From NCBI GenBank assembly GCA_947496375.1, contig CANMCY010000010.1, forward strand, positions 1 through 64,000: DNA of 64,000 nucleotides, in the 5' to 3' direction. Shown piece by piece: positions 5,743-57,793 of this stretch (position 1 is the stretch's first letter; the number at the start of each line of letters is the position of its first letter). This stretch comes from Flavobacteriales bacterium. Its GTDB lineage: Bacteria; Bacteroidota; Bacteroidia; NS11-12g; UBA955. The position numbers and the translations under genes are program-made. The notes under the pieces were generated by a model. It worked only from the letters and a program-made list of their open reading frames with translations, was not told the origin of the DNA and ran no database searches.

Positions 5743-7473
5743 TTAATAAACCCCATACACTCGCATGGAGGTTACCGTAATTCTGCCTCCTGTGCAGCCT
5801 CCGAGGCCGAGCACACCGGATAAAACAACGTTTCCTGCCGTTGTGCTGGCCCCGGAAACAGATACCTTGAACGGAAAAATCCAGCCCGTATTGCCGGTGC
5901 CCCCGCCGGTTACACTTCGCCGCGCCTGGGTTGTGGTGCTTGGACCACTGGGCAAGGCAATGGTTACCTCTCCATAATTGAATGACCCTCCATTGGCCCC
6001 AATTTCCATGTAACCCTCTGCTTCAGCAATGATGCGGCTATACGTATTGGCTGCAAGGGAATAGGTTTTGATGGTTCCGCTGCTGGTCCCGGTGCCACAA
6101 GGCGAATAATTGACGTTGATGTTGCTACTTTGAGATTCATCCGCATTCAACAATACCACAGTGCCTTTGGCGGCTGAAGTTGATGTTCCTGCATTTACCA
6201 GGGCAATCCATTTTGCCCCTTCCCAGTAATAAAAAAGATTATCATCTATGTTGAAAACAAGCAAACCGGCAGACGGGCTTTTAATTGCCTGCATCTGTAT
6301 CTTTGTCATTCTTGGAAACAACACCCCTTTTTGGGTTGAATTCACCTGAAATAACGCTGCAGTATCTACTTTGGATGTCCCAATTGCCACAGGCCCTTTT
6401 GGGTAATAACTTACCAAACTGTCCTGTTTCCAGTTGGCTGTGTCGCCATCAGCCACACTAAAGGTTACTGAATTCCCTTTGGTAATTTCCATGGTTCTGT
6501 CCATTTTGCTGGCAGTTACCACAAGTTGTTGAGAATCTGCATCTGTGATGGTTCCACCCCCATTGCTCAGGGCTATCTGATTGCCTTTTTTGGTCAGAAC
6601 CTGTAGCTCATTAAAAGCACTGCTATCCGGCAAGTGGATTATGCCCCCTCCCTGACTGAGGATAATTCTGCCCCCGTTTCGGTTGATGTTTTGCAGCTCG
6701 TTGGTAGCGCTGCTATCCGGAACTGTGATAATACCACCACCTTGATTCAGAATAATCCTTCCCCCGTTTCTGCTGATGCTTTGCAGCTCATTGGTAGAAC
6801 TGCTATCGGGTAAAAACAATGTTCCACCATTCAGGCTCAGCAACAAACGACCACCCACGCGGGTAAGTTTCTGAAGTTCGTTGGTCGATAAACTGTCTCC
6901 ATCCGACACAGAAAACGAAACAGGTTTGTAATTGCCCAGTTTCAGTTGTCTGTTATTGCCTATCACGGTCAGTTGCAGCGAGTCTGAACTGCTGCCTGAT
7001 GACAATGCATAGGGCACACTCCAAAACTGTGTTGTGCCCATGTCTGCATACACCGGTTTCCATCCCCAGCGCGGTATTGAAGGCATTACACATATCTTTA
7101 GGTTGAAAAAATACTTATCGCTGCCCCAGGGGATATCCACAATCTTTTTATACAGGCCCGTCAAAAATGTGCCCTGACCGACAATAACCGTAAACATGCC
7201 GTCAGCATTGCTGTTCACCTTATGCTCATCACGATACATTACTGTTCCGGTGGCTGTACTTTTCAATATGGTGGTCTGCACCAGTATGCTGCGTTTAGCC
7301 GCCAGGTTGCCGCTTCCATCTCGGGCCACTGCCTGATATACCATGCCGCTGGGTGCAATCTGAGCCATTACCCCGGTGAAACTAAACATAGCCATAAACA
7401 ATGAAGCCCATAATGAGACAAATGGCTTTCTGTTCAATAAAAATTCGTACAACATACCTGCCGTTATTTTCAT
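5743..7473 (-). CDS. Fiber-like secreted protein with four 30-residue repeats and a unique head domain (fiber A)
   Basis: 576 residues from the ATG at 7473, which overlaps the preceding stop as TAATG. Order: signal peptide (1-37); an N-terminal domain common in Bacteroidota secreted proteins (PSGMVYQAVARDGSGN...RDEHKVNSN, about 41-160); four tandem repeats of exactly 30 residues (198-317; pattern NELQ..xRxGGRxxLxxGGGxxxLPDSS); a GVLFPRMT...AGLLVF segment about residue 380 seen in tail-fiber-like proteins; and a C-terminal Gly/Ser/Thr-rich beta domain (about 430-576) with two Cys. It is last in the operon. The architecture suggests an elongated, perhaps trimeric, surface fiber. Function unknown. 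Confidence 0.8.
   Translation of the reverse strand: MKITAGMLYEFLLNRKPFVSLWASLFMAMFSFTGVMAQIAPSGMVYQAVARDGSGNLAAKRSILVQTTILKSTATGTVMYRDEHKVNSNADGMFTVIVGQGTFLTGLYKKIVDIPWGSDKYFFNLKICVMPSIPRWGWKPVYADMGTTQFWSVPYALSSGSSSDSLQLTVIGNNRQLKLGNYKPVSFSVSDGDSLSTNELQKLTRVGGRLLLSLNGGTLFLPDSSSTNELQSISRNGGRIILNQGGGIITVPDSSATNELQNINRNGGRIILSQGGGIIHLPDSSAFNELQVLTKKGNQIALSNGGGTITDADSQQLVVTASKMDRTMEITKGNSVTFSVADGDTANWKQDSLVSYYPKGPVAIGTSKVDTAALFQVNSTQKGVLFPRMTKIQMQAIKSPSAGLLVFNIDDNLFYYWEGAKWIALVNAGTSTSAAKGTVVLLNADESQSSNINVNYSPCGTGTSSGTIKTYSLAANTYSRIIAEAEGYMEIGANGGSFNYGEVTIALPSGPSTTTQARRSVTGGGTGNTGWIFPFKVSVSGASTTAGNVVLSGVLGLGGCTGGRITVTSMRVYGVY
6523..6882 (-). repeat. Four 90-bp coding repeats in fiber A
   Basis: Residues 198-317 form four consecutive 30-residue units, each starting NELQ (KLTR, SISR, NINR, VLTK) and containing GGR/GNQ, a GGG (NGG in unit 1) turn and, except in the last unit, LPDSS or VPDSS. 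The two central units are nearly identical, suggesting recent duplication or homogenisation. Confidence 0.9.
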
Positions 7474-7901
7474 TAGGGTGCTTCTTTGAATTCCAAAACA
7501 CTGATATACAAAACACCGCTGCCGGCGGCAATGGTAGTGGCAGCTGGTAGCCACATAGGTGTTTTTTGTTCCCAGATGATGTACTCCGGTGACCATGAGA
7601 CGCCAAAGCCATGACTCCACTGGTAACTAGCGTTCTGGGCCGAGAAACGCTGTGCCCTCACCATCAGCTTGTTTCCATTAATAACGATTGAATCTGATAT
7701 ATTTACCGGTGTTGTGCCTGCAGGACAATCAGCCACCGGCCTTGAATACACAAAACTCTCAATTTTCCACACCCTGCCGGTCGGAACCGTATCGGTCCTG
7801 CTGCTTACCAGCCGAGACTTCCCGAATTGAAGATTCTGGGCAATCAGTTTTTGACATATCAATGTCAAGAATAGTATGGTCAAGCACAATATTTTTTGCA
7901 T
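7473..7901 (-). CDS. Array paralog P1: small secreted protein of the QNLQFG...LEF family
   Basis: 142 residues. The signal peptide is probably cut after MQKILCLTILFLTLICQKLIAQ, leaving NLQFGKSRLVSSRTDTVP. Shared family blocks: VPTGRVWKIESFVYS, one Cys (ADCPAGT), NISDSIVINGNKLMVRAQRF, then WEQKTPMWLP and a C-terminal YISVLEFKEAP. Its loop between RAQRF and the PEY block is the longest of the set (SAQNASYQWSHGFGVSW). The stop overlaps the start of fiber A (TAATG), which suggests translational coupling. No T9SS sorting domain. Fold and role unknown; probably an all-beta domain. Confidence 0.85.
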   Translation of the reverse strand: MQKILCLTILFLTLICQKLIAQNLQFGKSRLVSSRTDTVPTGRVWKIESFVYSRPVADCPAGTTPVNISDSIVINGNKLMVRAQRFSAQNASYQWSHGFGVSWSPEYIIWEQKTPMWLPAATTIAAGSGVLYISVLEFKEAP

Positions 7902-7925
7902 ATTATTTGTTTATTCTCTGCTTTT

Positions 7926-8342
7926 TTATGGTGTTTCTTTAAATTCCAGTATGCTGATATACCTGACACCGGTTCCTGCGGCAAGGGTTGTACCGGAAGG
8001 CAGCCACATGGGTGTTTTTTGTTCCCAAAGAAAAAATTCCGGACCGTATGTATCCGATCTCCACGGATGCCAAAGACCTGCAAACCGCTGTGCACGCACC
8101 GCAGTATTAAAACCATTTAGCACAATAGAATCAGATAAATTGATGGATGTAGAACCTCCGGGACAATCGGCCAGTGTTCTGGAATAAACAAAACTCTCTA
8201 TCTTCCATATTTTTCCGGAAGGTACTGTATCCTGCTTACTTCCCACCAGCTTTGTAAGCCCAAATTGAAGGTTCTGAGCAGATAATATTCCGGCTTGACA
8301 ACCTATCAACATGAGCATTACAGACTTTAAATATTGATGCAT
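7926..8342 (-). CDS. Array paralog P2
   Basis: 138 residues from the ATG at 8342; the in-frame ATG at 8378 would overlap the upstream gene and add a polar stretch ahead of the signal peptide MHQYLKSVMLMLIGCQAGILSAQ. The mature start is NLQFGLTKLVGSKQDTVP. Conserved Cys is in ADCPGGST. The loop reads GLWHPWRSDTYG before PEFFLWEQ. It ends LEFKETP. The gap to P1 is 24 bp. Confidence 0.85.
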   Translation of the reverse strand: MHQYLKSVMLMLIGCQAGILSAQNLQFGLTKLVGSKQDTVPSGKIWKIESFVYSRTLADCPGGSTSINLSDSIVLNGFNTAVRAQRFAGLWHPWRSDTYGPEFFLWEQKTPMWLPSGTTLAAGTGVRYISILEFKETP

Positions 8343-8364
8343 TGGCCTTTTATGTTTTTGAATA

Positions 8365-8817
8365 CTAGGGTGTTTCACTAAATTCTAATACATTGATATA
8401 CAAAACACCCCTGCCCGCCGACAAGGTTGTTTTGGCAGGTAACCACATCGGGGTCTTTTGTTCCCAAATGATAAACTCAGGGGAGGAAGCGGAAGTGGCA
8501 TTTACATAATAATTAACGATGGTACCAACAAAGCGCTGAGCCCTAACAGGCATCTTATTGCCATTCAACACAATAGAGTCGGTAATATTGACTGGCGTGG
8601 TATTGGTAGGACAATCGGTAATGGCTTTGGAGAACATAAAGCTTTCAACCTTCCATACCTTACCTACAGGTACCGTATCTGTCTTACTATCTATCAGTTT
8701 AGACTTGCCAAACTGCAGGTTTTGAGCACCCACCTGATGAGTATAACCAATCGTGGCCAGGATGACGATTAATAAACAGCTATTTTTCACGGAATCTATA
8801 CATTTAAGGGGTTTCAT
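8365..8817 (-). CDS. Array paralog P3
   Basis: 150 residues from the ATG at 8817, which overlaps the end of P4 by 14 bp. A GTG nine codons later would give a cleaner signal peptide (VKNSCLLIVILATIGYTHQ) and cannot be excluded. Mature start NLQFGKSKLIDSKTDTVP; Cys in TDCPTNTT; loop VGTIVNYYVNATSASS, which lacks the Trp seen in most copies; end LEFSETP. First 40 mature residues are nearly identical to P4. Confidence 0.82.
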   Translation of the reverse strand: MKPLKCIDSVKNSCLLIVILATIGYTHQVGAQNLQFGKSKLIDSKTDTVPVGKVWKVESFMFSKAITDCPTNTTPVNITDSIVLNGNKMPVRAQRFVGTIVNYYVNATSASSPEFIIWEQKTPMWLPAKTTLSAGRGVLYINVLEFSETP

Positions 8818-9229
8818 TAAACTCCAATACATTGATATACAACACCCCACCTGCTGCCGACAACGTAGTTCCGGCAGGAATCCACATGGGCGTTTTTTGC
8901 TCCCAAATTACCAAATTGGGCGAAGTAGCTGCTACCCCTTGACTGCCCGCCTGATAGGTTACCGTCCCTGTAAATCGCTGTGCCCTTACCCCTATTTTGT
9001 TTCCATTCAGTATAATTGAATCTGTAATATTAATGGCGGTGCTACCGGTAGGACAATTTGCCGGAGGCAGCTTATATACAAAACTCTCTATCTTCCATAC
9101 CTTGCCGGAAGGCACTGTATCCCTTTTACTGTCTATCAGCTTAGACTTGCCAAACTGCAAATTTTGCGCATGCACCTTAACAACGCATACAGAAATAAAA
9201 AAAACAGCTATTAAACGTAACGTCTTCAT
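8804..9229 (-). CDS. Array paralog P4
   Basis: 141 residues with a clear signal peptide (MKTLRLIAVFFISVCVVKVHAQ). Mature start NLQFGKSKLIDSKRDTVP; Cys in ANCPTGST; loop TGTVTYQAGSQGVAAT followed by the unusual SPNLVIWEQ in place of PEF. Near the end AAGGVLYINVLEF replaces the common AGRGVLYIS. The end is LEFNETP. It sits 8 bp downstream of P5. Confidence 0.85.
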   Translation of the reverse strand: MKTLRLIAVFFISVCVVKVHAQNLQFGKSKLIDSKRDTVPSGKVWKIESFVYKLPPANCPTGSTAINITDSIILNGNKIGVRAQRFTGTVTYQAGSQGVAATSPNLVIWEQKTPMWIPAGTTLSAAGGVLYINVLEFNETP

Positions 9230-9237
9230 TTCTGGAA

Positions 9238-9648
9238 TTATGGTACCTCTTTAAACTCAATCACATTAATAAATTTCACGCCTCGGCCCGCCGACAGCGT
9301 GGCCCCTGCCGGTAGCCACATGGGCGTTGTTTGCTGCCAAAGTATGTATTGTGGTGAAATGGCTCCCCAAGAATTGGATGACGGTCCGTACATACGCTGT
9401 GTTCTCACGGCCATTCTGTGACCATTTAGTACGATAGAATCATCAATATTGACAACAGAATAGCTGCCGGGACAGTTGGCCATGGTATTGGAAAAAATAA
9501 ACCCTTCAACCTTCCAGGCCCTACCTGAAGGAACAGTATCCACCTTGCTGTCAATCAACTTGGATTTCCCATATTGGAGGTTTTGAGAATACAACCCCAT
9601 GGCAAAGACCATCATTAACAAACTGCAAAATATATGTTTTTTCATCAT
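9238..9648 (-). CDS. Array paralog P5
   Basis: 136 residues. Signal peptide MMKKHIFCSLLMMVFAMGLYSQ, then NLQYGKSKLIDSKVDTVP. With P6 it forms a distinct pair: NLQYGK instead of NLQFGK, KVDTVP instead of KTDTVP, RAWKVEGF instead of KVWKIESF, and a short loop (YGPSSNSWGAIS) before PQYILWQQ. Cys in ANCPGS. End IEFKEVP. The shared deviations suggest P5 and P6 arose by a recent duplication within the array. Confidence 0.85.
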   Translation of the reverse strand: MMKKHIFCSLLMMVFAMGLYSQNLQYGKSKLIDSKVDTVPSGRAWKVEGFIFSNTMANCPGSYSVVNIDDSIVLNGHRMAVRTQRMYGPSSNSWGAISPQYILWQQTTPMWLPAGATLSAGRGVKFINVIEFKEVP

Positions 9649-9663
9649 GCGTAAATTCTGTGA

Positions 9664-10068
9664 TTATGGCGACTCTTTAAATTCTATTATATTGATATAA
9701 CTCACACCACGGCCGGCTGCCAGCGTAGTGCCTGCAGGCAACCAAAGTGGTGTTTCCTGCTTCCATATTAAATATGTGGGAGCGGTAGAACCACGTGAAG
9801 TGTAAGTAGGTCCGAAAAATCGCTGGGCCCTCACCGCAAAATTATTTCCATTCAAGAGAATTGAATCAGTAATATTTACCTCGGTTGAACTGCTGGGACA
9901 GTTAGCTATGCTATTCGTAAAGACGAATCCCTCCAGCTTCCATGCTCTCCCTGTTGGAACCGTATCCACCTTACTGTCTATCAGCTTGGCCTTTCCATAC
10001 TGCAGATTTTGGGCAGATAATGCGGTTATTCCCAAAGTAGTTACGATAAATACAATTAGCATTCTCAT
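9664..10068 (-). CDS. Array paralog P6
   Basis: 134 residues. Signal peptide MRMLIVFIVTTLGITALSAQ, then NLQYGKAKLIDSKVDTVP. It pairs with P5 (see there) in RAWKLEGF and in the short loop, here FGPTYTSRGSTA before PTYLIWKQETPLWLP. Cys in ANCPSSST. End IEFKESP. The WKQ variant also appears in the outlying P14. Confidence 0.85.
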   Translation of the reverse strand: MRMLIVFIVTTLGITALSAQNLQYGKAKLIDSKVDTVPTGRAWKLEGFVFTNSIANCPSSSTEVNITDSILLNGNNFAVRAQRFFGPTYTSRGSTAPTYLIWKQETPLWLPAGTTLAAGRGVSYINIIEFKESP

Positions 10069-10082
10069 AGTTTACAACGCTT

Positions 10083-10532
10083 TTAAGGGGCCTCTTTAAA
10101 TTCCAGCACACTGATATATAGCACGCCCCTACCCGCAGACAACGTGGTACCTGCAGGTAGCCAAAGTGGTGTCTTTTGCTCCCATAATAAATACTCGGGA
10201 GCCAGGGATGTACCCCATCCCCTAAGGTCTTCTACCCCGGAAAAACGCTGTGCCCGCACCGCCATTTTGTTGCCGTTCAACACAATGGAATCTGTAATAT
10301 TCACCACAGATCCACCAGTTGGGCAATTTGCCAGACTTTTACTGTAGGTAAAATTTTCTATCTTCCATATTTTCCCAACCGGAACCGTGTCCGTCTTACT
10401 GTCGATGAGCTTGGTTCTTCCGAATTGCAGGTTTTGGGCAGATAAACGGGTGCCCATGCCTAGAACCAACAACATGATCATATACCTAAAAAAGAGCATA
10501 AAACGGTGTAGCTTCCCGATATATTCAACCAT
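10083..10532 (-). CDS. Array paralog P7
   Basis: 149 residues from the ATG at 10532, 7 bp after P8 ends. Other in-frame ATGs at 10550, 10538 and 10499 exist; 10499 would give a shorter signal peptide (MLFFRYMIMLLVLGMGTRLSAQ). Mature start NLQFGRTKLIDSKTDTVP; Cys in ANCPTGGS; loop SGVEDLRGWGTSLA before PEYLLWEQ; end LEFKEAP. A 44-bp stretch (10396-10439) is identical to P8. Confidence 0.82.
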   Translation of the reverse strand: MVEYIGKLHRFMLFFRYMIMLLVLGMGTRLSAQNLQFGRTKLIDSKTDTVPVGKIWKIENFTYSKSLANCPTGGSVVNITDSIVLNGNKMAVRAQRFSGVEDLRGWGTSLAPEYLLWEQKTPLWLPAGTTLSAGRGVLYISVLEFKEAP

Positions 10533-10539
10533 AAACATA

Positions 10540-10959
10540 TTATGGAACATCTTTAAACTCTAATATACTAATATACAACACACCTCGACCTGCCGCAAGC
10601 GTAGTCCCCGCAGGAAGCCACATGGGCGTTTTTTGCTCCCATACCAGAAACTCCGGTGAGGGTGATGTGTTCCAGTTACGCCAATCAACCAGCCCTGCAA
10701 AGCGCTGTGCCCGCACCGATAGCTTATTGCCATTCAGCACAATCGAGTCTGAAATGTTGACCGTTGCCCCACTGCCCGGACAGTCAGCCAGCGTCTTGGA
10801 ATATACGAAGCTCTCAATCTTCCATATTTTACCACTGGGTACGGTATCCGTTTTACTGTCGATGAGCTTGGTTCTTCCGAATTGCAGGTTTTGGGCCTGG
10901 ATAGTTCCATAGCTTAACAATAAAACCGGTAAAAAAAATGCCATTAGTCGCTCTTTCAT
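10540..10959 (-). CDS. Array paralog P8
   Basis: 139 residues from the ATG at 10959, chosen for its compact signal peptide (MKERLMAFFLPVLLLSYGTI); an in-frame ATG at 10995 would add 12 residues. Mature start NLQFGRTKLIDSKTDTVP, identical to P7 at protein level and over 44 bp of DNA. Cys in ADCPGSGA; loop AGLVDWRNWNTSPS before PEFLVWEQ; end LEFKDVP. Confidence 0.84.
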   Translation of the reverse strand: MKERLMAFFLPVLLLSYGTIQAQNLQFGRTKLIDSKTDTVPSGKIWKIESFVYSKTLADCPGSGATVNISDSIVLNGNKLSVRAQRFAGLVDWRNWNTSPSPEFLVWEQKTPMWLPAGTTLAAGRGVLYISILEFKDVP

Positions 10960-11007
10960 TCTGCAAACTAGGTTATTATTCGTAAATGTGCTCACTTAAA
11001 ATTGCTA

Positions 11008-11427
11008 TTACGGCACATCATTAAACTCCAATACACTAATATATAACACACCACGGCCCGCGGCCAAAGTGGTTCCTGAGGGCAGCCACATGGGCGTTTT
11101 CTGCTCCCAAAGAAAAAACTCCGGCGACCAGGCATACCCGTAGCGCCAGTTATCATGCAGACCAGAAAATCGCTGTACCCTCACAGCAAGTTTGTTCCCA
11201 TTGATGGCGATTGAATCGGAGATATTAACATTGGAGGCCCCGGTAGGACAATCCGGTGCAGTTTTTGAAAAAATAAAACTCTCTACCTTCCACACCTTAC
11301 CGGCAGGAACCGTATCGGTTTTACTTTCGATGAGCTTAGTTTTCCCAAATTGCAGGTTTTGCCCTTTCAAAGCCATCCCTGACAACATCAGCACCAAGAC
11401 TGTAATTAATCTTATTTTTGTATGCAT
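11008..11427 (-). CDS. Array paralog P9
   Basis: 139 residues. Signal peptide MHTKIRLITVLVLMLSGMALKGQ, then NLQFGKTKLIESKTDTVP. Cys in PDCPTGAS; loop SGLHDNWRYGYAWS before PEFFLWEQ; end LEFNDVP. It begins a subgroup (P9-P13) whose loops start SGL(H/Y/F). The gap to P8 is the longest within the array proper (48 bp with the chosen P8 start). Confidence 0.85.
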   Translation of the reverse strand: MHTKIRLITVLVLMLSGMALKGQNLQFGKTKLIESKTDTVPAGKVWKVESFIFSKTAPDCPTGASNVNISDSIAINGNKLAVRVQRFSGLHDNWRYGYAWSPEFFLWEQKTPMWLPSGTTLAAGRGVLYISVLEFNDVP

Positions 11428-11433
11428 AAAACT

Positions 11434-11883
11434 TTAAGGGGTTTCATTAAACTCCAGAACACTGAGGTAAAAAACACCGCGACCTGCCGCCAACGTAGAC
11501 CCCGCCGGCAACCACATGGGCAGCTTTTGTTCCCATACCAAAAATTCAGGAGCATGGGCAAAACGATAAGTTGTGTTTTCATACAACCCTGAAAAACGCT
11601 GCGCCCGCACCATCATTTTGGTTCCGTCCAGCGCAATAGAATCTGAAATATTGATGGAAACACCGCTTGTGGGACAGGTAACAATGCCTTGCTTATATAT
11701 GATGGTCTCTACCTTCCAAACCTTTCCTGTGGGTACAGTATCTGTTTTGCTTCCAATTAGTCTGGTTTTGCCAAACTGCAGATTCTGGGAATAGGCAGAA
11801 CCGACAAGAAATAAACCCGTCAACAACATTATCGCTTTGTATATTTTTTGCACAATGATTGTGTTTTGTTTGTTTTTAAACAT
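11434..11883 (-). CDS. Array paralog P10
   Basis: 149 residues with a long n-region before the hydrophobic stretch (signal ends LFLVGSAYSQ). The ATG overlaps the stop of P11 as TAATG. Mature start NLQFGKTRLIGSKTDTVP. It carries VETIIYKQGIVTCPTSG where most copies have VESFVYSK. Loop SGLYENTTYRFAHA before PEFLVWEQKLPMWLP; end LEFNETP. Confidence 0.85.
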   Translation of the reverse strand: MFKNKQNTIIVQKIYKAIMLLTGLFLVGSAYSQNLQFGKTRLIGSKTDTVPTGKVWKVETIIYKQGIVTCPTSGVSINISDSIALDGTKMMVRAQRFSGLYENTTYRFAHAPEFLVWEQKLPMWLPAGSTLAAGRGVFYLSVLEFNETP

Positions 11884-12323
11884 TAAGGTGATTCCTTAAA
11901 CTCCAGCACGCTAATATACATTACACCCCTGCCAGCAGCGATGGTAGTGCCGGTCGGAAGCCACATCGGGGTTTTTTGTTCCCACAGAAAAAACTCAGGA
12001 CCCCACGTATGATTGCTCCATGCCTGATGTAAACCCGAAAACCGCTGTGCCCTCACCATCAGATTTCTGCCGTTTAATATGATAGAATCCGAAATATTTA
12101 GGGATGTATTGGAGGTAGGACAAACGGCAATAGACTGCGAATACACAAAACTTTCTATCTTCCATACTTTGCCTGCCGGCACGGTATCGGTTTTGCTATC
12201 GATAAACTTGGTTTTACCAAACTGCAGGTTCTGTGCGACAAGATTTTGGCTTACAACCAACAATCCCATCAGCAGGGCGGATTTAAGCAATATCAGTATG
12301 CTATTTCTCATCGGTTTATTCAT
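11883..12323 (-). CDS. Array paralog P11
   Basis: 146 residues. The signal peptide begins MNKPMRNSILILLKSALL and ends VSQNLVAQ; mature start NLQFGKTKFIDSKTDTVP. Cys in AVCPTSNT; loop SGLHQAWSNHTWG before PEFFLWEQ; AGRGVMYISVLEF instead of GVLYIS; end FKESP. Its TAA stop shares one base with the ATG of P10. Confidence 0.85.
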   Translation of the reverse strand: MNKPMRNSILILLKSALLMGLLVVSQNLVAQNLQFGKTKFIDSKTDTVPAGKVWKIESFVYSQSIAVCPTSNTSLNISDSIILNGRNLMVRAQRFSGLHQAWSNHTWGPEFFLWEQKTPMWLPTGTTIAAGRGVMYISVLEFKESP

Positions 12324-12329
12324 TTTGCA

Positions 12330-12797
12330 TCAAGGGGTTTTCTTAAATTCCAACACACTGAGGTACATTACCCCTCGGCCCGCTGCCACCCTTGTTCCGG
12401 AGGGAAGCCACATGGGCAATTTTTGTTCCCATACGATAAATTCCGGAGAAAACGCTTGTGAACTCCAGCCCGGATGCAAACCCGAGAAACGCTGCGCCCT
12501 CACCATGGTCCCTTTACCGTCTAACATGATTGAATCGGAAATATTAATGTAATTGCTGCTGGTGGGGCAATGGGTAACTCCCTGCGAATACACAATGCTC
12601 TCCACCTTCCAGATCCTGCCAGTAGGTACCGTATCGGTTTTTGAATCCACCATGCGGGCATCCACAAATTCCAGGTTCTGAGCAATCAATCCACCGGCTG
12701 TCATGAATAACAAAAAACATATCAACCCCCTGATACTATTTTTAACAGAAGCTCTCTCACTCCATCTGCGCTGTAATATTGCTTTCATTGACGGCAT
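12330..12797 (-). CDS. Array paralog P12 (diverged N-terminus)
   Basis: 155 residues from the ATG at 12797; an ATG at 12788 or a GTG further in (VKNSIRGLICFLLFMTAGG) are alternatives, the latter resembling the possible P3 GTG start. Unlike its neighbours the mature protein begins NLEFVDARMVDSKTDTVP rather than NLQFGKTKL. Cys in THCPTSSN; loop SGLHPGWSSQAFS before PEFIVWEQKLPMWLP; end LEFKKTP, the only copy with Lys-Lys there. Confidence 0.83.
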   Translation of the reverse strand: MPSMKAILQRRWSERASVKNSIRGLICFLLFMTAGGLIAQNLEFVDARMVDSKTDTVPTGRIWKVESIVYSQGVTHCPTSSNYINISDSIMLDGKGTMVRAQRFSGLHPGWSSQAFSPEFIVWEQKLPMWLPSGTRVAAGRGVMYLSVLEFKKTP

Positions 12798-12802
12798 TTA
12801 CA

Positions 12803-13216
12803 TCAGGGCGCTTCATTAAATTCCAGGATGCTGATATACATTACTCCCCGGCCGGCGGCAAGGGTTGTACCGGCCGGCAGCCACAATGGTGTTTTCTGCT
12901 CCCAAAGAAAGAATTCCGGGGCCCATGCGTAATTATCCCAGGAGTTTTCAAACAACCCCGAAAAGCGCTGTGCCCTTACCATCATTTTATTTCCGTTAAA
13001 AACAATCGAATCCGAAATATTCAGCGTGGTTCCGCTGGTTGGGCAGTTAACGATGGCCTGAGAATACACAAAACCTTCCATTTTCCAGATCTTGCCTTTG
13101 GGCACGGTGTCGGTTTTGGTATCGATAAGCTTGGTCTTCCCAAATTGTAGATTCTGAGCACCCAGTCCGGAAACTGCTGAAATAAAAAACACCCAAACAA
13201 GTAGCTTCGTCGACAT
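12803..13216 (-). CDS. Array paralog P13
   Basis: 137 residues from the ATG at 13216, 13 bp after fiber B ends; an upstream in-frame ATG at 13321 lies inside fiber B and would bury the signal peptide (MSTKLLVWVFFISAVSGLG). Mature start NLQFGKTKLIDTKTDTVP; VPKGKIWKMEGF; Cys in VNCPTSGT; loop SGLFENSWDNYAWA before PEFFLWEQKTPLWLP; end LEFNEAP. Confidence 0.85.
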   Translation of the reverse strand: MSTKLLVWVFFISAVSGLGAQNLQFGKTKLIDTKTDTVPKGKIWKMEGFVYSQAIVNCPTSGTTLNISDSIVFNGNKMMVRAQRFSGLFENSWDNYAWAPEFFLWEQKTPLWLPAGTTLAAGRGVMYISILEFNEAP

Positions 13217-13229
13217 GATGCGAACGGGA

Positions 13230-14528
13230 TTAAAATCCTTGGGTAGTGTAAATGAGGGTGTTGCTGCTGCCCCCGCCACTGCCACTTCCCGAACTGAGGC
13301 GTATCCAGGCCGTACCTTCATAATAGTAGAAACCGCCGGTTTTATCCGTTTGGAAAACCAGCAAGCCCGTAGCCGGTTTGCTAATCAACAAACGCTGTGC
13401 CTCCGTCATTCGGGGAAACAAAACACCCTTGGTAGTAGAGTTCACCTGAAATGCTGCGGTAGAATCTACCGTTGAAGTTCCAATCCCCACGCTGCCTTTA
13501 TTGTAGTAGGTGGTGGTTTTGGCCTGCTTCCAGTGCGTTGTATCGCCATCTGCCACATCAAAACTCACCTTATTGCCCTTGCTGATGCGTATGGTGCGCT
13601 CCAGTTTATTGGTATCGATGGCCAGGGTCTGCGAATCCGCATCGGTAACGGTTCCACCTCCAATGCTCAGGGATATCTGATCTCCCTTTTTGGTCAATAC
13701 CTGTAACTCGTTCACAGCACTGCTGTCGGGCAAGTTGATTATGCCTCCTCCTTGGTTGAGAATAACTCTTCCTCCAATGCGGGTAATGCTTTGCAATTCG
13801 TTGGTGGAACTGCTGTCCGGAAGGGTGATTACCCCTCCGCCCATGCTCAAAGATATTCTGCCACCGGTTCTGATGATGCTCTGCAATTCATTCACAGCAC
13901 TGGAATCGGGAAGACTAACCATTCCGCCATTCAAACTCAGCAACAAGCGACCGCCGGTACGGGTAAGCTTTTGAATTTCATTGGTTGCAACACTGTCTCC
14001 ATCCGAAACTGAGAATAAAATGGGCTGATAACCGCCTAGCTTGAGCTGCCTGTTGTTGCCAATCACTTTCAACTGCAGTGAATCTGCACTGCTGCCCGAA
14101 GACAAGGCATAAGGAACGCTCCAGAACTGGGTAGTACCCATGTCTGTGTAGACAGGTTTCCAGCCCCAGCGAGGAATGGAAGGAGTAACGCATATTTTCA
14201 GGTTGAAGAAGTATTTGTCGCTGCCCCAGGGAATGTCCACAATCTTTTTGTAAAGACCTGCCAAGTAGGTTCCCTGACCCACAATAACCGTAAACATGGC
14301 GTCAGCATTGCTGTTCACCTTGTGTTCATCGCGATACATCACGGTTCCGGTGGCACTGCCCTTGTGAATGGTGGTTTGCACCAAGATGCTGCGCTTGGCA
14401 GCCAGATTGCCACTTCCATCCCGGGCTACCGCCTGGTAAATCATTCCGTTAGGCGATGTTGTCTGTGCCTTTACATTTTCGGCTCCCACAAGCCAAAAGA
14501 GCACAAAAAATGGTATTATTCTTTTCAT
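13230..14528 (-). CDS. Fiber-like secreted protein with four 30-residue repeats, headless (fiber B)
   Basis: 432 residues, a paralog of fiber A. Signal peptide (1-22, ...AENVKAQ); the same N-terminal domain (PNGMIYQAVARDGSGN, about 26-150); four 30-residue repeats (183-302); GVLFPRMTEAQ...TGLLVFQTD...YYYEGTAWIRL; then a short Gly/Ser tail SGSGSGGGSS ending LIYTTQGF. The large C-terminal domain of fiber A is missing; whether it was lost or never present cannot be told here. It lies between P14 and P13, so fibers and small paralogs are interleaved and probably co-expressed. Confidence 0.8.
   Translation of the reverse strand: MKRIIPFFVLFWLVGAENVKAQTTSPNGMIYQAVARDGSGNLAAKRSILVQTTIHKGSATGTVMYRDEHKVNSNADAMFTVIVGQGTYLAGLYKKIVDIPWGSDKYFFNLKICVTPSIPRWGWKPVYTDMGTTQFWSVPYALSSGSSADSLQLKVIGNNRQLKLGGYQPILFSVSDGDSVATNEIQKLTRTGGRLLLSLNGGMVSLPDSSAVNELQSIIRTGGRISLSMGGGVITLPDSSSTNELQSITRIGGRVILNQGGGIINLPDSSAVNELQVLTKKGDQISLSIGGGTVTDADSQTLAIDTNKLERTIRISKGNKVSFDVADGDTTHWKQAKTTTYYNKGSVGIGTSTVDSTAAFQVNSTTKGVLFPRMTEAQRLLISKPATGLLVFQTDKTGGFYYYEGTAWIRLSSGSGSGGGSSNTLIYTTQGF
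13623..13982 (-). repeat. Four 90-bp coding repeats in fiber B
   Basis: Residues 183-302 are four 30-residue units beginning NEIQKLTR, NELQSIIR, NELQSITR and NELQVLTK, in the same order and phase as in fiber A. The first and last units of the two fibers match each other better than they match their own internal units, so the four-unit array predates the duplication of the fiber gene. Confidence 0.9.
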
Positions 14529-14567
14529 TTTATTAGTGTTTTATTAGTATTTTATTGGTGTTTTTAA

Positions 14568-14951
14568 TTACGGTACCTCTTTAAATTCGATTATACTGAC
14601 ATATTTAACCCCCACATCCGCTTTCACAATGGTTCCTGAGGGCAGCCAAATCGGTAAATCCTGTTTCCAAAAAAAGTGATCAATGTTGCCAGCGTCAATG
14701 CGGTGCGCCCTTACCACAAAAGCATCCCCATTTACAATGATTTTATCGTCCTCACCCCACGAAAGATTGGGATAAGTGCAAAGATTGCGGCTAAACAGAA
14801 AACTCTCTATTTTCCATACCCGGCCCGTAGGAACCGTATCGGCAGTAGAAGAAACCAGCTTGGCTTTGCTAAACTGAAGATTTTGAGCATTGGATTCGGA
14901 AACCATGCAGCCGATCATCAAAACCATGAATATTCTTAGGATGTTACTCAT
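14568..14951 (-). CDS. Array paralog P14 (short, most diverged)
   Basis: 127 residues, signal peptide MSNILRIFMVLMIGCMVSES. Mature start NLQFSKAKLVSSTADTVP. It keeps VPTGRVWKIESFLFSR, VRAHR, WKQDLPIWLPSGT and the LEF-type end (IIEFKEVP). The Cys-Pro motif is altered (CTYPNL), NISDSI is replaced by WGEDDKI, and the loop is nearly absent (IDAGNIDHFFWKQ). It lies apart from the other 13, on the promoter-proximal side of fiber B, and could represent the unelaborated ancestral form. Confidence 0.8.
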   Translation of the reverse strand: MSNILRIFMVLMIGCMVSESNAQNLQFSKAKLVSSTADTVPTGRVWKIESFLFSRNLCTYPNLSWGEDDKIIVNGDAFVVRAHRIDAGNIDHFFWKQDLPIWLPSGTIVKADVGVKYVSIIEFKEVP

Positions 14952-14962
14952 TTCTGCCGGGA

Positions 14963-15478
14963 TTATGATTTCAGCTTAATCACAGAAAAAACTCGGTTCA
15001 ACCCCTCTGCTCCGGTAACCTTCACAAAATAATTACCCTCGGCATGCGCTGCAATCGATATACTTATTCGCTGAATGTCAGACAACTCCACATTCATACT
15101 TTTGATAAAGCGACCCGTATTGTCATAGATTTCCACCCCGGTAATTCCTGAACCCTCGAGCCAGTATTGGCCAAAACCCGGGTTGGGATACAGGCGCAAA
15201 TCCGATACCTCAGGCACTTCTATGCAGTTTTCCCTGAAATTGCCGGCGGCATTATACAGTTCTGATTGTCCGTAGATATGGCCACCCTGAACCATGATGC
15301 ATCGGGTACGGCTGTCTTGACACACGATGGCACCACCTGAATTGGCGCTTGTACTATCGGATATGGCAAATGAAGCAAAACCGCCAAACACCAGTGTCTG
15401 GGCATTAACAGCCGAGAACATTGAAAACAGCAGCCCGATGAGAATGATGTTATTTCGCACGGTAATGAATTTGTACAT
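14963..15478 (-). CDS. Secreted protein with T9SS type A sorting domain
   Basis: 171 residues from the ATG at 15478, overlapping the upstream lipoprotein gene by 29 bp. Signal peptide (MYKFITVRNNIILIGLLFSM...NAQ), a short central region with three Cys (VCQDSRTRC, ENC) and a C-terminal Por-secretion domain: LRLYPNPGFGQYWLEG, VEIYDNTGRFI, GNYFVKVTG, VFSVIKLKS. The domain should direct export through the type IX system and surface attachment. It is the only product in this operon with a recognisable T9SS signal. The central part matches no family I know. Confidence 0.8.
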   Translation of the reverse strand: MYKFITVRNNIILIGLLFSMFSAVNAQTLVFGGFASFAISDSTSANSGGAIVCQDSRTRCIMVQGGHIYGQSELYNAAGNFRENCIEVPEVSDLRLYPNPGFGQYWLEGSGITGVEIYDNTGRFIKSMNVELSDIQRISISIAAHAEGNYFVKVTGAEGLNRVFSVIKLKS

Positions 15479-15866
15479 TGGGATTTCCTGAACCATTGTC
15501 TATTAGCCGCAATACCAGATTGCCTTCCGACAGAGCTTCTACGTTGTAGGTAAACTTTCCGGTTCCGCCAATGGTGATGGTTTCAGTGATTTTATTGGCT
15601 CCTTCGTCGAACTGATACGTACCCCCCATGCCATCAGAATCTACAAAAGTATTGTCGGATTTGTAGGTTATGTTGAAAGCAAGCTCCTCTTCAGATAAGG
15701 TATACAGGGTATCGCTGACATACATTTTTTCCAGTTGCCATGTCTTGGAACCGTCTGACCTGAGCATTTCCGCCCTCGTTAAGTCAGTGGATTTACCATC
15801 CTTGTTACAAGCGGCAAAAACGCCGGAACCAAGCAAACAAATTAGCAGTAAGTAGCTGTATTTCAT
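15450..15866 (-). CDS. Lipocalin-like lipoprotein, first gene of the array operon
   Basis: 138 residues. Lipobox at GVFAAC (lipid-modified Cys about residue 20), then a beta-rich body with SKTWQLEKMYVSD, TYKSDNTF, GGTYQFDEGANKITETITIGG and LVLRLID, as in Bacteroidota lipocalin-like lipoproteins. The ligand is unknown. The start ATG lies 13 bp after a well-formed -33/-7 promoter, so it probably heads a transcript of about 10 kb running to 5743. It overlaps the next gene, supporting co-transcription. Confidence 0.75.
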   Translation of the reverse strand: MKYSYLLLICLLGSGVFAACNKDGKSTDLTRAEMLRSDGSKTWQLEKMYVSDTLYTLSEEELAFNITYKSDNTFVDSDGMGGTYQFDEGANKITETITIGGTGKFTYNVEALSEGNLVLRLIDNGSGNPNVQIHYRAK

Positions 15867-15879
15867 GGTGAATAAACCA

Positions 15880-15908
15880 CAAATATATACAACGGGTTAA
15901 AAAAACAA
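15880..15908 (-). promoter_or_regulatory. Bacteroidota-type promoter of the 5.7-15.9 kb operon
   Basis: On the minus strand TTG (15908-15906), an 18-nt spacer and TATATTTG (15887-15880) match the -33/-7 consensus (TTG/TTTG, about 19-20 nt, TAnnTTTG). No other gap in the operon is long enough for an obvious internal promoter. Confidence 0.75.
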
Positions 15909-17827: not shown

Positions 17828-18197
17828 GGGGCTGACCGGACTTGACAGGATGATTGGTTGCGGTGTAAGCATGTAGTGCTTTGGATGTAGGCACTTAAAT
17901 CTCAATGTTCAAAACCATAAGAGGCGAAAATAACTACGCCCTCGCTGCCTAATTCGGAGTAATTAGCATTGCGTGTTGCTCCCGTCGCTTTTGTCTGTGT
18001 AACTGACGAAACGGAGCAATCGACGAACACAGGTATGGTCACTCACACCGGCCAGGTGAGCCATTAACACGCCGGATAAGGATGGAGTAAGGTTATTTCT
18101 GTACCCGCCCCATCCCGACAACAAACAGAAATAAACATGTAGAAAGCGCCAGTAGTCGCATCTCTGGACGAGGGTTCGATTCCCTCCAGCTCCACCA
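17828..18197 (+). ncRNA. ssrA: tmRNA (one-piece), tag GENNYALAA
   Basis: The 5' end GGGGCTGACCGGAC pairs with the 3' end CAGCTCC-A-CCA in a 7-bp acceptor stem; the T-arm GGGTTCGATTCCC precedes the 3' end, and CCA is encoded. The tag frame runs 17923-17952: resume codon GGC, then GAA AAT AAC TAC GCC CTC GCT GCC TAA, giving GENNYALAA, the tag typical of Bacteroidota. The region between tag and 3' end contains the expected pseudoknot-forming repeats. With SmpB it rescues stalled ribosomes and marks products for proteolysis. Confidence 0.97.
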
Positions 18198-40910: not shown

Positions 40911-40954
40911 CCTTGCCCATAGGGTGGGGTTTAAACCCCACCCTATGGGCAAGG
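40911..40954. repeat. Left REP-like palindrome of the RAYT unit
   Basis: Perfect 22+22-bp inverted repeat centred on TTTAAA, beginning 36 bp before the transposase ATG. It shares a 22-bp central core (centre GGGGTTTAAACCCC) with the right palindrome; the outer arms (CCTTGCCCATA...) differ. Confidence 0.9.
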
Positions 40955-40989
40955 ACAAGACCACCACCATTTCAACAAGCATTCTCATC

Positions 40990-41451
40990 ATGTCTAAATC
41001 GTATTATACAATCTGGATTCACGCCATTTGGTCCACCAAATACCGGTTGCCATTGATACAACCGCATTTTGAAGATAAAATTCATGATTTTATAAGAGAA
41101 CAATTGCGTCAAATGGGTTGTCCGGTTAGGATTATCAACGGCATGCCCGACCATGTTCATTGCCTGTTTTTGTTAAATCCACAAAAAACTATAGTTGAGG
41201 TAATCAAACATATCAAAGGCAGCAGCGCTCATTTTGTGAACGAACAAGAACTAATGGATATAAAATTTGCCTGGCAGACGGGCTATGCGGCATTTTCTGT
41301 TTCGGCATCGGGAGTTGAACCGGTATTCCAATACATTAAAAACCAAAAAACCCATCATCAAAAGAATAATTTCCAGGAGGAATATGATGAGTTTATTAAA
41401 TTATACAATGCCGAGAAGCATCAACCCTCGCCCCCATCGGGTGGGGTTTAA
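40990..41451 (+). CDS. RAYT/IS200-IS605-like Y1 transposase
   Basis: 153 residues from the ATG at 40990; the frame is open further upstream through the left palindrome but that part encodes no family sequence. HUH motif in MPDHVHCLF (His55, His57); catalytic Tyr115 in VFQYIKNQKTHH, as in the Y1_Tnp family. Length fits an intact enzyme. The stop codon TAA (41449-41451) lies in the TTTAAA centre of the right palindrome. No tnpB or accessory gene is present. Domesticated REP-associated transposases cut palindromic single-stranded DNA. Confidence 0.9.
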   Translation: MSKSYYTIWIHAIWSTKYRLPLIQPHFEDKIHDFIREQLRQMGCPVRIINGMPDHVHCLFLLNPQKTIVEVIKHIKGSSAHFVNEQELMDIKFAWQTGYAAFSVSASGVEPVFQYIKNQKTHHQKNNFQEEYDEFIKLYNAEKHQPSPPSGGV

Positions 41452-55275: not shown

Positions 55276-55596
55276 ATGAAAGAAATAATTGAAAAACTGA
55301 TTGAATTCAGAAACGACAGAGATTGGGAACAATTTCATAATCCCAAAGATCTTGCCTTAGCCATCAATGTTGAAGCAGGGGAATTGCTAGAATTATTTCT
55401 TTGGAAAAATCCATCTGAAGCCAATGTAGATAAAGTAAAAGAGGAACTAGCTGATGTTTTTGCGTTTGCCTTTTTGTTAGCAGAAAAGTACAACTTTGAT
55501 GTAAAAGAAATTGTGCTGGAAAAAATCAATAAAAACGGTGAGAAATATCCGGTAGAGAAAGCCAAAGGTACTGCTAAAAAGTATAATGAACTATAA
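55276..55596 (+). CDS. MazG-like nucleotide pyrophosphohydrolase
   Basis: 106 residues from the ATG at 55276. Pattern of the MazG/dCTPase superfamily: FRNDRDWEQFHNPKDLALAINVEAGELLELFLW with acidic EAGE, then EELADVFAFAFLLAEKY. It should hydrolyse a nucleoside triphosphate to the monophosphate and pyrophosphate; the N-terminal WEQFHNPKDLA stretch is like the dCTP pyrophosphatase type. It overlaps the next gene by 11 bp. AT-rich like its partner. Confidence 0.88.
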   Translation: MKEIIEKLIEFRNDRDWEQFHNPKDLALAINVEAGELLELFLWKNPSEANVDKVKEELADVFAFAFLLAEKYNFDVKEIVLEKINKNGEKYPVEKAKGTAKKYNEL

Positions 55597-57793
55597 CCAA
55601 GATTTTGAAATAAATAAAATTGAATTCAATAATTATGGATTGAGTTCTATTCAATCACATTATTTTGTAAGTGATAACTGGCCTGTAGTTTATATTTTAA
55701 ATGATAATGGTATAAGTCAAGCTTATGTTGGTGAAACCATTGATACTAATTCTCGAATTTTCACACATTTGCAAACACCAAGCAAAAGTCATTTACAAGA
55801 AGCTCACTTAATTTCGAGCAGAAAATTCAACAAATCGGTGACCCTAGATATTGAATCCAATTTAATAAAATATTTACATGCCGATGGAAAATATAAATTA
55901 TTAAATGGCAATTTAGGTTTGGTAAATCACTCCTATTATCAAAGAGATGAGTTTTATTGGGATATGTTTAAAAATATATGGAATGGTCTTATAACTAAAG
56001 GAATTGCCCAACATAGTTTAGAACATATTTCAAATAGCGACTTGTTTAAGTATTCACCTTATAAGACATTATCTACCGACCAAAGAAAGAATTTGATGTT
56101 AATAATTGACGCACTTCTATCTGAAAATAAAAAATCAATATTGGTAGAAGGGGGCGCAGGCACAGGTAAAACCATACTTGCTATTTTTCTTTTTAAGTTA
56201 ATGTTAACTTCTGATGAGGATTTTAATTATAGAGAATTCGGTGAATACGAAAAAGAATTTGTAGATAAGGTAAAACAATTAAAGATAAAGTTTCCCAATC
56301 CTAAAATGGGTTTGGTGATAGCAATGGGTTCTTTTCGAAAAACTATTAAAAAAGTTTTTCGAAACATTAATGGCTTAAATTCTAATCTTGTTATTGGCCC
56401 TTCAGATTTGGAATATGAATCATATGATATTCTTTTTGTGGATGAATCTCATCGTTTGAGAAAAAGAGTTAATCTTGGCCCGTACTTCGCCATTTATGAC
56501 AGGGTTTGTAATGCCCTAAAACTAGACAAACTAAACACTTCAGAATTAGCTTGGACTCAATTAAGGTCAAATAAAGTATTATATTTTTACGATGCTAAAC
56601 AGTCTATAAAACCTTCTGATGTTGATGCTGTTGATTTTGAAAACTTAAAAAATGCATCTAACTCTATAAATGTAAAATTACATTCACAGTTCAGAGTAAA
56701 AGGAGGCAATGGATTTGTTGATTTTGTAAATAATTTATTAGACAATAGTTTTAAGAATAAAGAATTCAAATACAACGACACCAATTATGACTTGCTTCTA
56801 TTTGAGAATTTTTCTGATTTCGTTAATGAACTTAGAGAAAAGAACGAAAAACATCAACTTTCAAGATTCATAGCAGGTTATGCCTGGCCATGGATAAGTC
56901 AGAATGATCCTAATGCATATGATATTGAAATAGAAGATATAAAACTAAAATGGAATTCAACTGCAATTGATTACATCAATTCTGATATTGATGCACAAGA
57001 AGTAGGTTGTATTCATACCACTCAAGGTTACGACCTCAATTATGCGGGAATAATTTTTGGTCCAGAAATTATATACAATCCAATATCAAAAGAAATTGAG
57101 ATAGTAAAGGAAAATTATAAAGATAGAAATGGTACTGCAACAATAAGAGATAACGCAGTTCTTAAAGACTACATAATAAATATTTATAAAATTATTATGC
57201 TCAGAGGCATACTAGGTTGCTATATTTATGTGTGTGACGAAAATTTGCGAAATTATTTTAAAGAGCATATCTATTTATTTAAGGAAAACCAGAATCCAAT
57301 TGTCGAGATTGCTGAGTCAAAAGAAATTCAGTTGATTCCATTTGAAAATAGTGTTCCGCTATATTCCTTAAAAGTTGCTGCAGGTGAATTTAAATTCAAT
57401 GACAGTATCCCTGAAGAAAAATTCATTGTAGTTCCTGATGGCGTAAAAATTACACAAGACCATTTTGCGTGTAAAATAATTGGTAACTCTATGAACAAAA
57501 TAGTACAAGATGGTCAAATAGCTTTGTTTAAAAGGCATACTGGTGGCAGTAGAAATGGCTTAATGGTCATTGCTGAATATTACGACCATCAAGATTTAGA
57601 TTATGGTTCTTGTTATACATTCAAGGAATATTACAGTCAGAAAACTGGTAACGAGGAAAGTTGGCAACATGAAAAAATAATTCTTAAACCAAAGTCATTT
57701 GACGCTTCATATCAAGATATTGTAATTGACCAAAATGCAATTAATGAAAAGACTTTTAGTGTAATAGGAATATTTGACAGAGTAATTGAATAA
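55586..57793 (+). CDS. GIY-YIG nuclease - DUF2075 helicase - S24-like fusion protein
   Basis: 735 residues in three parts. N-terminal GIY-YIG-like nuclease (about 30-100): VYIL (35-38), YVGE (47-50), Arg57, candidate catalytic Glu90. A DUF2075 SF1-type helicase core follows (about 160-560): Walker A EGGAGTGKT (188-196), Walker B ILFVDESHR (282-290), LYFYDAKQS, a conserved IHTTQGYDLNYAGIIFGPE motif. The C-terminal 130 residues resemble a LexA/S24 fold with IGNSM (Ser635); the expected catalytic Lys is not evident, so it may only sense or bind. The combination suggests DNA defence. AT-rich and translationally coupled to MazG. Confidence 0.82.
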   Translation: MNYNQDFEINKIEFNNYGLSSIQSHYFVSDNWPVVYILNDNGISQAYVGETIDTNSRIFTHLQTPSKSHLQEAHLISSRKFNKSVTLDIESNLIKYLHADGKYKLLNGNLGLVNHSYYQRDEFYWDMFKNIWNGLITKGIAQHSLEHISNSDLFKYSPYKTLSTDQRKNLMLIIDALLSENKKSILVEGGAGTGKTILAIFLFKLMLTSDEDFNYREFGEYEKEFVDKVKQLKIKFPNPKMGLVIAMGSFRKTIKKVFRNINGLNSNLVIGPSDLEYESYDILFVDESHRLRKRVNLGPYFAIYDRVCNALKLDKLNTSELAWTQLRSNKVLYFYDAKQSIKPSDVDAVDFENLKNASNSINVKLHSQFRVKGGNGFVDFVNNLLDNSFKNKEFKYNDTNYDLLLFENFSDFVNELREKNEKHQLSRFIAGYAWPWISQNDPNAYDIEIEDIKLKWNSTAIDYINSDIDAQEVGCIHTTQGYDLNYAGIIFGPEIIYNPISKEIEIVKENYKDRNGTATIRDNAVLKDYIINIYKIIMLRGILGCYIYVCDENLRNYFKEHIYLFKENQNPIVEIAESKEIQLIPFENSVPLYSLKVAAGEFKFNDSIPEEKFIVVPDGVKITQDHFACKIIGNSMNKIVQDGQIALFKRHTGGSRNGLMVIAEYYDHQDLDYGSCYTFKEYYSQKTGNEESWQHEKIILKPKSFDASYQDIVIDQNAINEKTFSVIGIFDRVIE

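Follow-up and report, generated by a model that had tools for sequence, protein, structure and literature searches.

Among described bacterial fibers, the mosaic adhesive trimer (MAT) fibers of Bdellovibrio (PMC10769870; NF053851) are secreted proteins in which the N-terminal domain is conserved and the C-terminal tips are exchanged, TNF-like lectin and S74 ends being among them; two members share a fiber that is 75% identical while their tips differ (PMC10769870). In the Bacillus exosporium a small tumor necrosis factor (TNF)-like jelly roll, ExsF/BxpB, binds a linear peptide of the collagen-like fiber protein BclA or of the F-Anchor (PMC11952670, PDB 9h3d). The locus described here lies on the minus strand of a 64,000-nucleotide stretch of contig CANMCY010000010.1 from a Flavobacteriales bacterium (assembly GCA_947496375.1; the whole stretch is referred to as the window) and encodes two fiber-like proteins, A and B, and fourteen small secreted proteins, P1-P14; it probably specifies a split-tip adhesive fiber, in which the C-terminal tail of fiber B is a docking peptide and the P proteins are separate, alternative tips. 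A separate tip has a viral counterpart in T-even phages of the S16 type (gp37/gp38), where the tip adhesin is a protein of its own, encoded just downstream of the fiber.

Fibers A and B resemble the MAT fibers in having one body with exchanged C-terminal ends, and in having sister fibers with S74, Lcl_C and collagen ends; however, MAT tips are fused, whereas fiber B has a tail plus an array of separate small proteins, and the conserved MAT domain of ~130 residues that follows the signal peptide is matched only partially here, below cutoff. The likeness to gp38 lies in gene order, with P13 starting 13 bp past the fiber B stop and fiber-then-tip order recurring at other loci, and in the broadly similar Gly-rich module that some permuted P proteins carry; the locus differs in being cellular rather than viral and in having many paralogous tips per fiber, and no sequence relation was found. 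No Pfam match to a Gly-rich recognition domain was obtained in any window P protein scanned, PF21722 being present only on permuted relatives. ExsF offers a precedent for the proposed pair of tail and P protein, namely docking of a linear terminal fiber peptide on a small jelly roll. In Bacillus, however, an N-terminal peptide docks on a jelly roll that serves as the base, whereas in the present locus a C-terminal peptide would dock on a jelly roll that serves as the tip. Again the sequences showed no relation, and a search of NCBIfam with fibers A and B (E up to 1) did not return the exosporium leader TIGR03720. Collagen-like stalks in three array-head fibers (L031, L083, L084) recall Legionella Lcl and streptococcal Scl, and the Lcl_C ends on sister fibers of the source genome recall Lcl; we know of no separate tip proteins for either adhesin. 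Donor-strand pili (chaperone-usher and type V) differ in that the P8 model has no terminal extension to complement a neighbor. To our knowledge no bacterial fiber with a docking tail plus a tandem tip library has been described, and no paper on such arrays was found in a literature search outside of which most subscription journals lay; fused-tip mosaic fibers are already known, and as far as can be told the P family and the plan of one dock for many tips are undescribed.

Fibers A and B share a body and differ in their ends

The open reading frame (ORF) of fiber A (5743..7473; all features of the locus are on the minus strand) encodes a signal peptide, a MAT-like N-domain (6970-7356), a repeat stalk, a VGIG..PRMT-type module and a fused C-terminal tip (about 5743-6180). 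The ORF of fiber B (13230..14528) encodes the same type of body, with its MAT-like N-domain at 14070-14456, and has no fused tip. The two proteins are 74% identical over 405 residues and diverge at one shared point, beyond which fiber A has its tip, about 145 residues long, and fiber B a Gly/Ser linker (SSGSGSGGGSS, 13263..13295) and the candidate docking tail, NTLIYTTQGF plus stop (13230..13262). A common role for both fibers is not supported, as only fiber B has the candidate docking tail.

A model of the fiber A tip prepared with AlphaFold2 from four sequences (predicted local distance difference test (pLDDT) 78; predicted template modeling score (pTM) 0.75) finds its best structural matches among TNF-like lectins, with the BC2L-C N-domain at Z 9.7 (root mean square deviation 3.0 over 123 residues) and Photorhabdus PLTL at Z 9.6, and it matches PDB 9h3d at Z 8.2; since other jelly rolls lie near Z 8, the comparison is good for the fold class and does not extend to a ligand. 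No relatives of this tip were found in viral contigs.

The fiber A tip is 67-70% identical to the tips of short fibers in another family, in a genus rich in P genes. There the tips sit on a body of the VGIG/PRMT kind, the same genomes elsewhere end that body in the tail, and the fused tips open with a strand, LLYADE, that resembles the tail. Tail and fused tip thus alternate on the same kind of body in two distant lineages, so that the tail appears to mark where a tip belongs; as judged from sequence, this alternation is the strongest argument for that position. Within the P array of L085, a 453-residue fiber-like protein (10139-11500) carries a full-length Gly_rich_2 tip (E=2e-23); it corresponds to fiber A but bears another fused tip.

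The source genome has ten copies of the MAT-like N-domain, and none of the eight other fibers that carry it (L152-L159) ends in the tail. Lcl_C forms the end of five of these eight, scoring over the Pfam cutoff in three and slightly under it in two, and an S74 chaperone that of one, while the remaining two have sub-threshold collagen repeats and an unassigned end, respectively. The curated model of the MAT N-domain (NF053851, Bdello_MAT_N; cutoff 60 bits) matches fiber A at E=5.4e-7 with 29.5 bits and other array-head fibers with up to 54.9 bits, and does not match fiber B.

The tail is linked to P genes

The tail was sought in its strict form (TL[IV]YxxxGF-stop) by a degenerate DNA search of 395 genomes of the class, from which matches were discarded if Phe replaced Leu or if a real stop was lacking. 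Thirteen strict matches were left; all those in ORFs of at least 60 residues (9/9) lie directly upstream of P genes, and the other four are in frames open for only 15-41 codons. At the genome level the association of tail and P genes has a Fisher p of about 1e-9. When hidden Markov models (HMMs) of the P family and of the fiber N-domain and the C-terminal motif were run on 2704 ORFs from 46 loci, a few of which duplicate one contig, each ORF ending in the tail motif (14/14) was found to precede P genes directly. Exactly one tail gene is present in each genome of the P-rich genus (6/6) and none in other genomes of that family (0/10), and a narrower pattern, scanned phylum-wide, found the source genome alone among 395. 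P homologs do adjoin fiber genes in unrelated genomes, as the reading in the earlier note had demanded.

The bodies that bear the tail are diverse: some consist of the MAT N-domain only (L022, L028), others are collagen-like (L031, L083), beta-repeat (the window, L088, L094) or built of VGIG/PRMT modules (L078-L091), and many of the other tails are preceded, as in fiber B, by G/S/N-rich linkers. The tail keeps the form TL[IV]Y[TL]xxGF, and relaxed forms of it head the P array of L084 (SLVHTVKGF) and an array of permuted P genes at L122 (WLVYTTAGF).

This linkage could reflect co-transcription only, if the P proteins were independent secreted proteins (soluble lectins, matrix or decoys) and the tail a sorting or anchoring signal. 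Such an explanation, which would be suited by the solitary P genes that occur away from any fiber and by P proteins with signal peptides only, is unlikely, as the tail is confined to array heads, is missing from other fibers of the same genome, and replaces a fused tip and not an anchor.

P proteins are a family with a predicted jelly-roll fold

Fourteen ORFs, P1-P14, were verified in the window, with starts set at the signal-peptide methionines (several mechanically listed starts were too early). P1 (7473..7901), P2 (7926..8342), P3 (8365..8817), P4 (8804..9229), P5 (9238..9648), P6 (9664..10068), P7 (10083..10550), P8 (10540..10959), P9 (11008..11427), P10 (11434..11883), P11 (11883..12323), P12 (12330..12797) and P13 (12803..13216), the first P gene past fiber B, form a head-to-tail run bounded by fiber A and fiber B, with spacings of -14 to +48 bp; P14 (14568..14951) lies on the far side of fiber B, ahead of which it is transcribed. 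This single locus holds all 14 P genes of the source genome. In the family alignment the mean column identity is 58% and 29 columns are invariant; the other window paralogs are 42-66% identical to P8, and P14 is the most diverged (42-47% identity). In every window P protein an N-terminal signal peptide leads into Q-N-L-[QE]-[FY]. These results confirm what had been described earlier from the sequence: fourteen paralogous secreted proteins on the minus strand, thirteen of them between the fibers and P14 beyond fiber B, with shared sequence blocks and with gaps ranging from small overlaps to about 48 bp.

None of the window P proteins scanned matched a Pfam, NCBIfam or PHROG family, 85 diverse members gave no consistent Pfam family for any, and no relative was found among PDB sequences. 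Mature P8, the member chosen for folding, was modeled with 84 homologs as eight strands in jelly-roll order (pLDDT 90.3, pTM 0.82). P is thus an undescribed family for which an eight-strand jelly roll is confidently predicted. Searched with Foldseek, the model gave no significant match (best E 0.025), and its best VIA match was to nucleoplasmin-type jelly-roll cores at Z 7.1, a value that may reflect common arrangement only. An enzyme fold was rejected, there being no significant match to any enzyme family; the earlier note had counted a known, unrelated enzyme family against its own reading.

Conservation is unevenly distributed over the model. Strands B and C, the BC loop, the W-L-P-[AS]-G motif and the last strand are conserved. 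From the CD loop through strands D-F to the EF loop, members differ in both sequence and length (the EF region has 0-33 residues), and residues 32-86 hold the bulk of the variability. Both of these loops contain few aliphatic and Lys/Arg residues and many Ser and Gly, and in the window proteins they are additionally rich in Trp, Tyr and His.

The model bears on the possibility that P proteins co-assemble into a heteropolymeric filament, of which the fiber B tail merely primes the first subunit. Tandem paralogs of one fold together with a single priming protein per genome would suit such a filament, and in F-ENA filaments a collagen-like anchor acts as the primer (PMC11952670). Yet the strands of mature P8 span E2-11 to E105-116 of 117 residues, with no extension past the first or last strand, so that a terminal hook for strand exchange is missing; moreover, no P protein carries a copy of the tail, and arrays of one or a few P genes exist (L031, L094, L028). 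Filament assembly is for these reasons rather improbable.

Circular permutants suggest a docking and a display side

At L118, L121, L122 and L123, relatives were found in which the halves of P are reversed: strands D to I come first, a linker joins them to strands B and C, and a large module comes after these; by eye, L022 959-1726 has the same layout. The permuted sequences give two half-domain HMM matches as they stand and, when rotated in silico, one collinear match with approximately the summed score (9/9 cases; for example, 31+33 bits become 66). The permutation opens the chain at the variable CD loop, and the appended modules comprise PF21722 Gly_rich_2, collagen repeats and a sub-threshold match to a phage collar. 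A tail fiber adjoins permuted P genes at L022 and L122. Because the permutants open the variable region and mount an adhesive-type module there, the variable side of P would be the one that displays and the conserved side the one that docks. Fusion of two halves of neighboring genes inside an array would be an easy origin for such permutants.

P genes are individually maintained

Species pairs of the P-rich genus share 11-18 reciprocal best matches per array pair, and between orthologs the ratio of nonsynonymous to synonymous substitution rates (dN/dS) is 0.05-0.16 for the conserved and 0.08-0.24 for the variable part. Diversifying selection is therefore not seen (dN/dS 0.05-0.24), and a picture of rapid diversification is not supported. 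In the window the paralogs are saturated at synonymous sites (proportion of synonymous differences, pS, 0.74-0.76 in variable and conserved parts alike), by which recent duplication or gene conversion was rejected. By these sequence comparisons the P genes are old, individually maintained and under purifying selection; low dN/dS and individually kept orthologs fit a stable repertoire of specificities better than antigenic variation.

The same data weigh on a further alternative, in which P proteins help the fiber C-terminus to assemble or trimerize, as dedicated chaperones comparable to the tail-fiber assembly proteins of phages, and are absent from the final fiber. The strict linkage of P genes to the fiber end would be expected of chaperones, which in phages are often encoded directly downstream of the fiber; but 13-40 different chaperones per fiber are implausible, and neither the individual conservation of each ortholog nor the adhesive modules on the permutants is in keeping with such a role, which makes this alternative quite improbable.

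Proposed mechanism

In the split-tip model, fiber B would be a MAT-like surface fiber in which a flexible linker and NTLIYTTQGF stand in place of a fused recognition tip, while fiber A retains a fused TNF-like lectin tip on the shared body. After Sec export, any one P protein would dock on the tail peptide and become the tip of the fiber, with a single P or a P trimer capping the fiber trimer. The tail would insert into or along the P jelly roll and might contribute a further strand to it. The docking body would consist of the conserved strands B, C, G and I with their surrounding loops, and the variable middle of the protein, from the CD loop to the EF loop, would be the displayed and probably ligand-binding part; the ligand is probably a surface glycan. 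Cells may carry one or several types of P on their fibers. The surface structure with interchangeable tips envisaged in the earlier note is supported and made more specific by the permutants, by the tail motif and by its exchange for a fused tip, while its surface display and binding stay presumptive.

Several observations weigh against this model. Docking is proposed from sequence and single-chain models, and no natural fusion of P and tail, foldable as a single chain, was found. The kinship to MAT fibers is weakened by a curated model that fails to reach fiber B and reaches fiber A only below its cutoff. The fiber end at L092 is divergent (NNYIFSKGW), P genes at L079, L080, L093, L095, L096, L098 and L109 occur singly or in small arrays with no tail fiber beside them, and a few P-bearing genomes yielded no tail; solitary P genes may serve the single tail fiber of their genome in trans. 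Among eight window proteins scanned (two fibers, four P proteins and two upstream gene products), the sorting domain of the type IX secretion system (T9SS; TIGR04183) was found only on the product of 14963-15496 and on none of the P proteins and fibers scanned. Finally, low dN/dS even in the variable region speaks against a role in arms-race recognition.

If docking is true, the pair would be a natural plug-and-socket display on bacterial fibers, with one 10-residue peptide serving many tips; it would explain how some Bacteroidia keep up to about 40 recognition modules with one fiber built, and it would give the unclassified P family a function. The chances are about even that these loci represent a new class of adhesins with a universal plug, one docking peptide on unrelated bodies receiving up to ~40 exchangeable jelly-roll tips, some of them permuted to mount phage-like adhesin modules. 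The pair of peptide (GSSNTLIYTTQGF) and tip is compact and open to a single binding assay, and the circular permutants offer an independent clue as to which side docks and which displays.

Distribution of P genes

The distribution counts rest on sampled public genomes, of which many are incomplete, and the evidence overall consists of sequence comparison and single-chain structure prediction. With the P HMMs, relatives were found in 24/395 genomes of the class and in 2/108 genomes of the order to which the window belongs, a patchy distribution. The P-bearing contigs belong to several unrelated families of Bacteroidia, arrays reach about 20 genes, and the six genomes of the P-rich genus have 25-41 P genes each. 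No P relative was found in 50,697 phage records or in viral contigs, and a phage or plasmid origin of P was rejected for want of any match. That the locus is a remnant of a prophage or tailocin with multiplied fiber genes is accordingly very improbable: Gly-rich, collar and S74 domains do resemble phage tail modules, but along with the lack of P relatives in those phage collections no phage structural gene was recognized among the neighboring ORFs, and all window P ORFs have signal peptides.

In the P-rich genus a divergent gene with the motif MDDLI[ED]I[IV]HQLS, possibly regulatory, is conserved just upstream of large P arrays (L078 4592-6070 and L085 2595-4025). A secreted protein with a GE..QGF.QP-type motif, in some cases with a T9SS-like end, recurs near these fiber genes (L022 5908-6702, L028 10817-12817, L029 1441-2235, L030 7002-7490, L031 8376-8903) and also directly downstream of the L157 fiber; it is a candidate anchor or export partner.

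Upstream genes and other features of the window

The order of transcription is lipoprotein, T9SS-sorted protein, P14, fiber B, P13 to P1 and fiber A. The lipoprotein (15450..15866), first gene of the putative operon, has a signal peptide that ends in a lipobox-like GVFAAC (by eye) and a weak, sub-cutoff lipocalin-like match (Lipocalin_4, E=0.011). It is followed by a small secreted protein (14963..15496) that ends in a T9SS sorting domain of type A (TIGR04183, E=1.7e-8, better than the cutoff), a possible surface anchor partner of the fibers. Both genes had been recognized earlier, behind what was called one good promoter. A Bacteroidota-type promoter candidate, TTG-N18-TATATTTG (15880..15908), is indeed present just ahead of the first gene and is the only match to TTG-N18-TAnnTTTG in the whole window, but with 1.6 matches expected by chance it is a plausible yet weak candidate.

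Elsewhere in the window, a 735-residue ORF (55586-57793) that is GIY-YIG/helicase-like with an S24-like end lies in a stretch of 31% GC and looks imported, perhaps related to defence, and an IS200/REP-type transposase-like ORF (40924-41451) lies in a stretch of 34% GC. A tmRNA gene with the tag GENNYALAA is located at 17828-18197.

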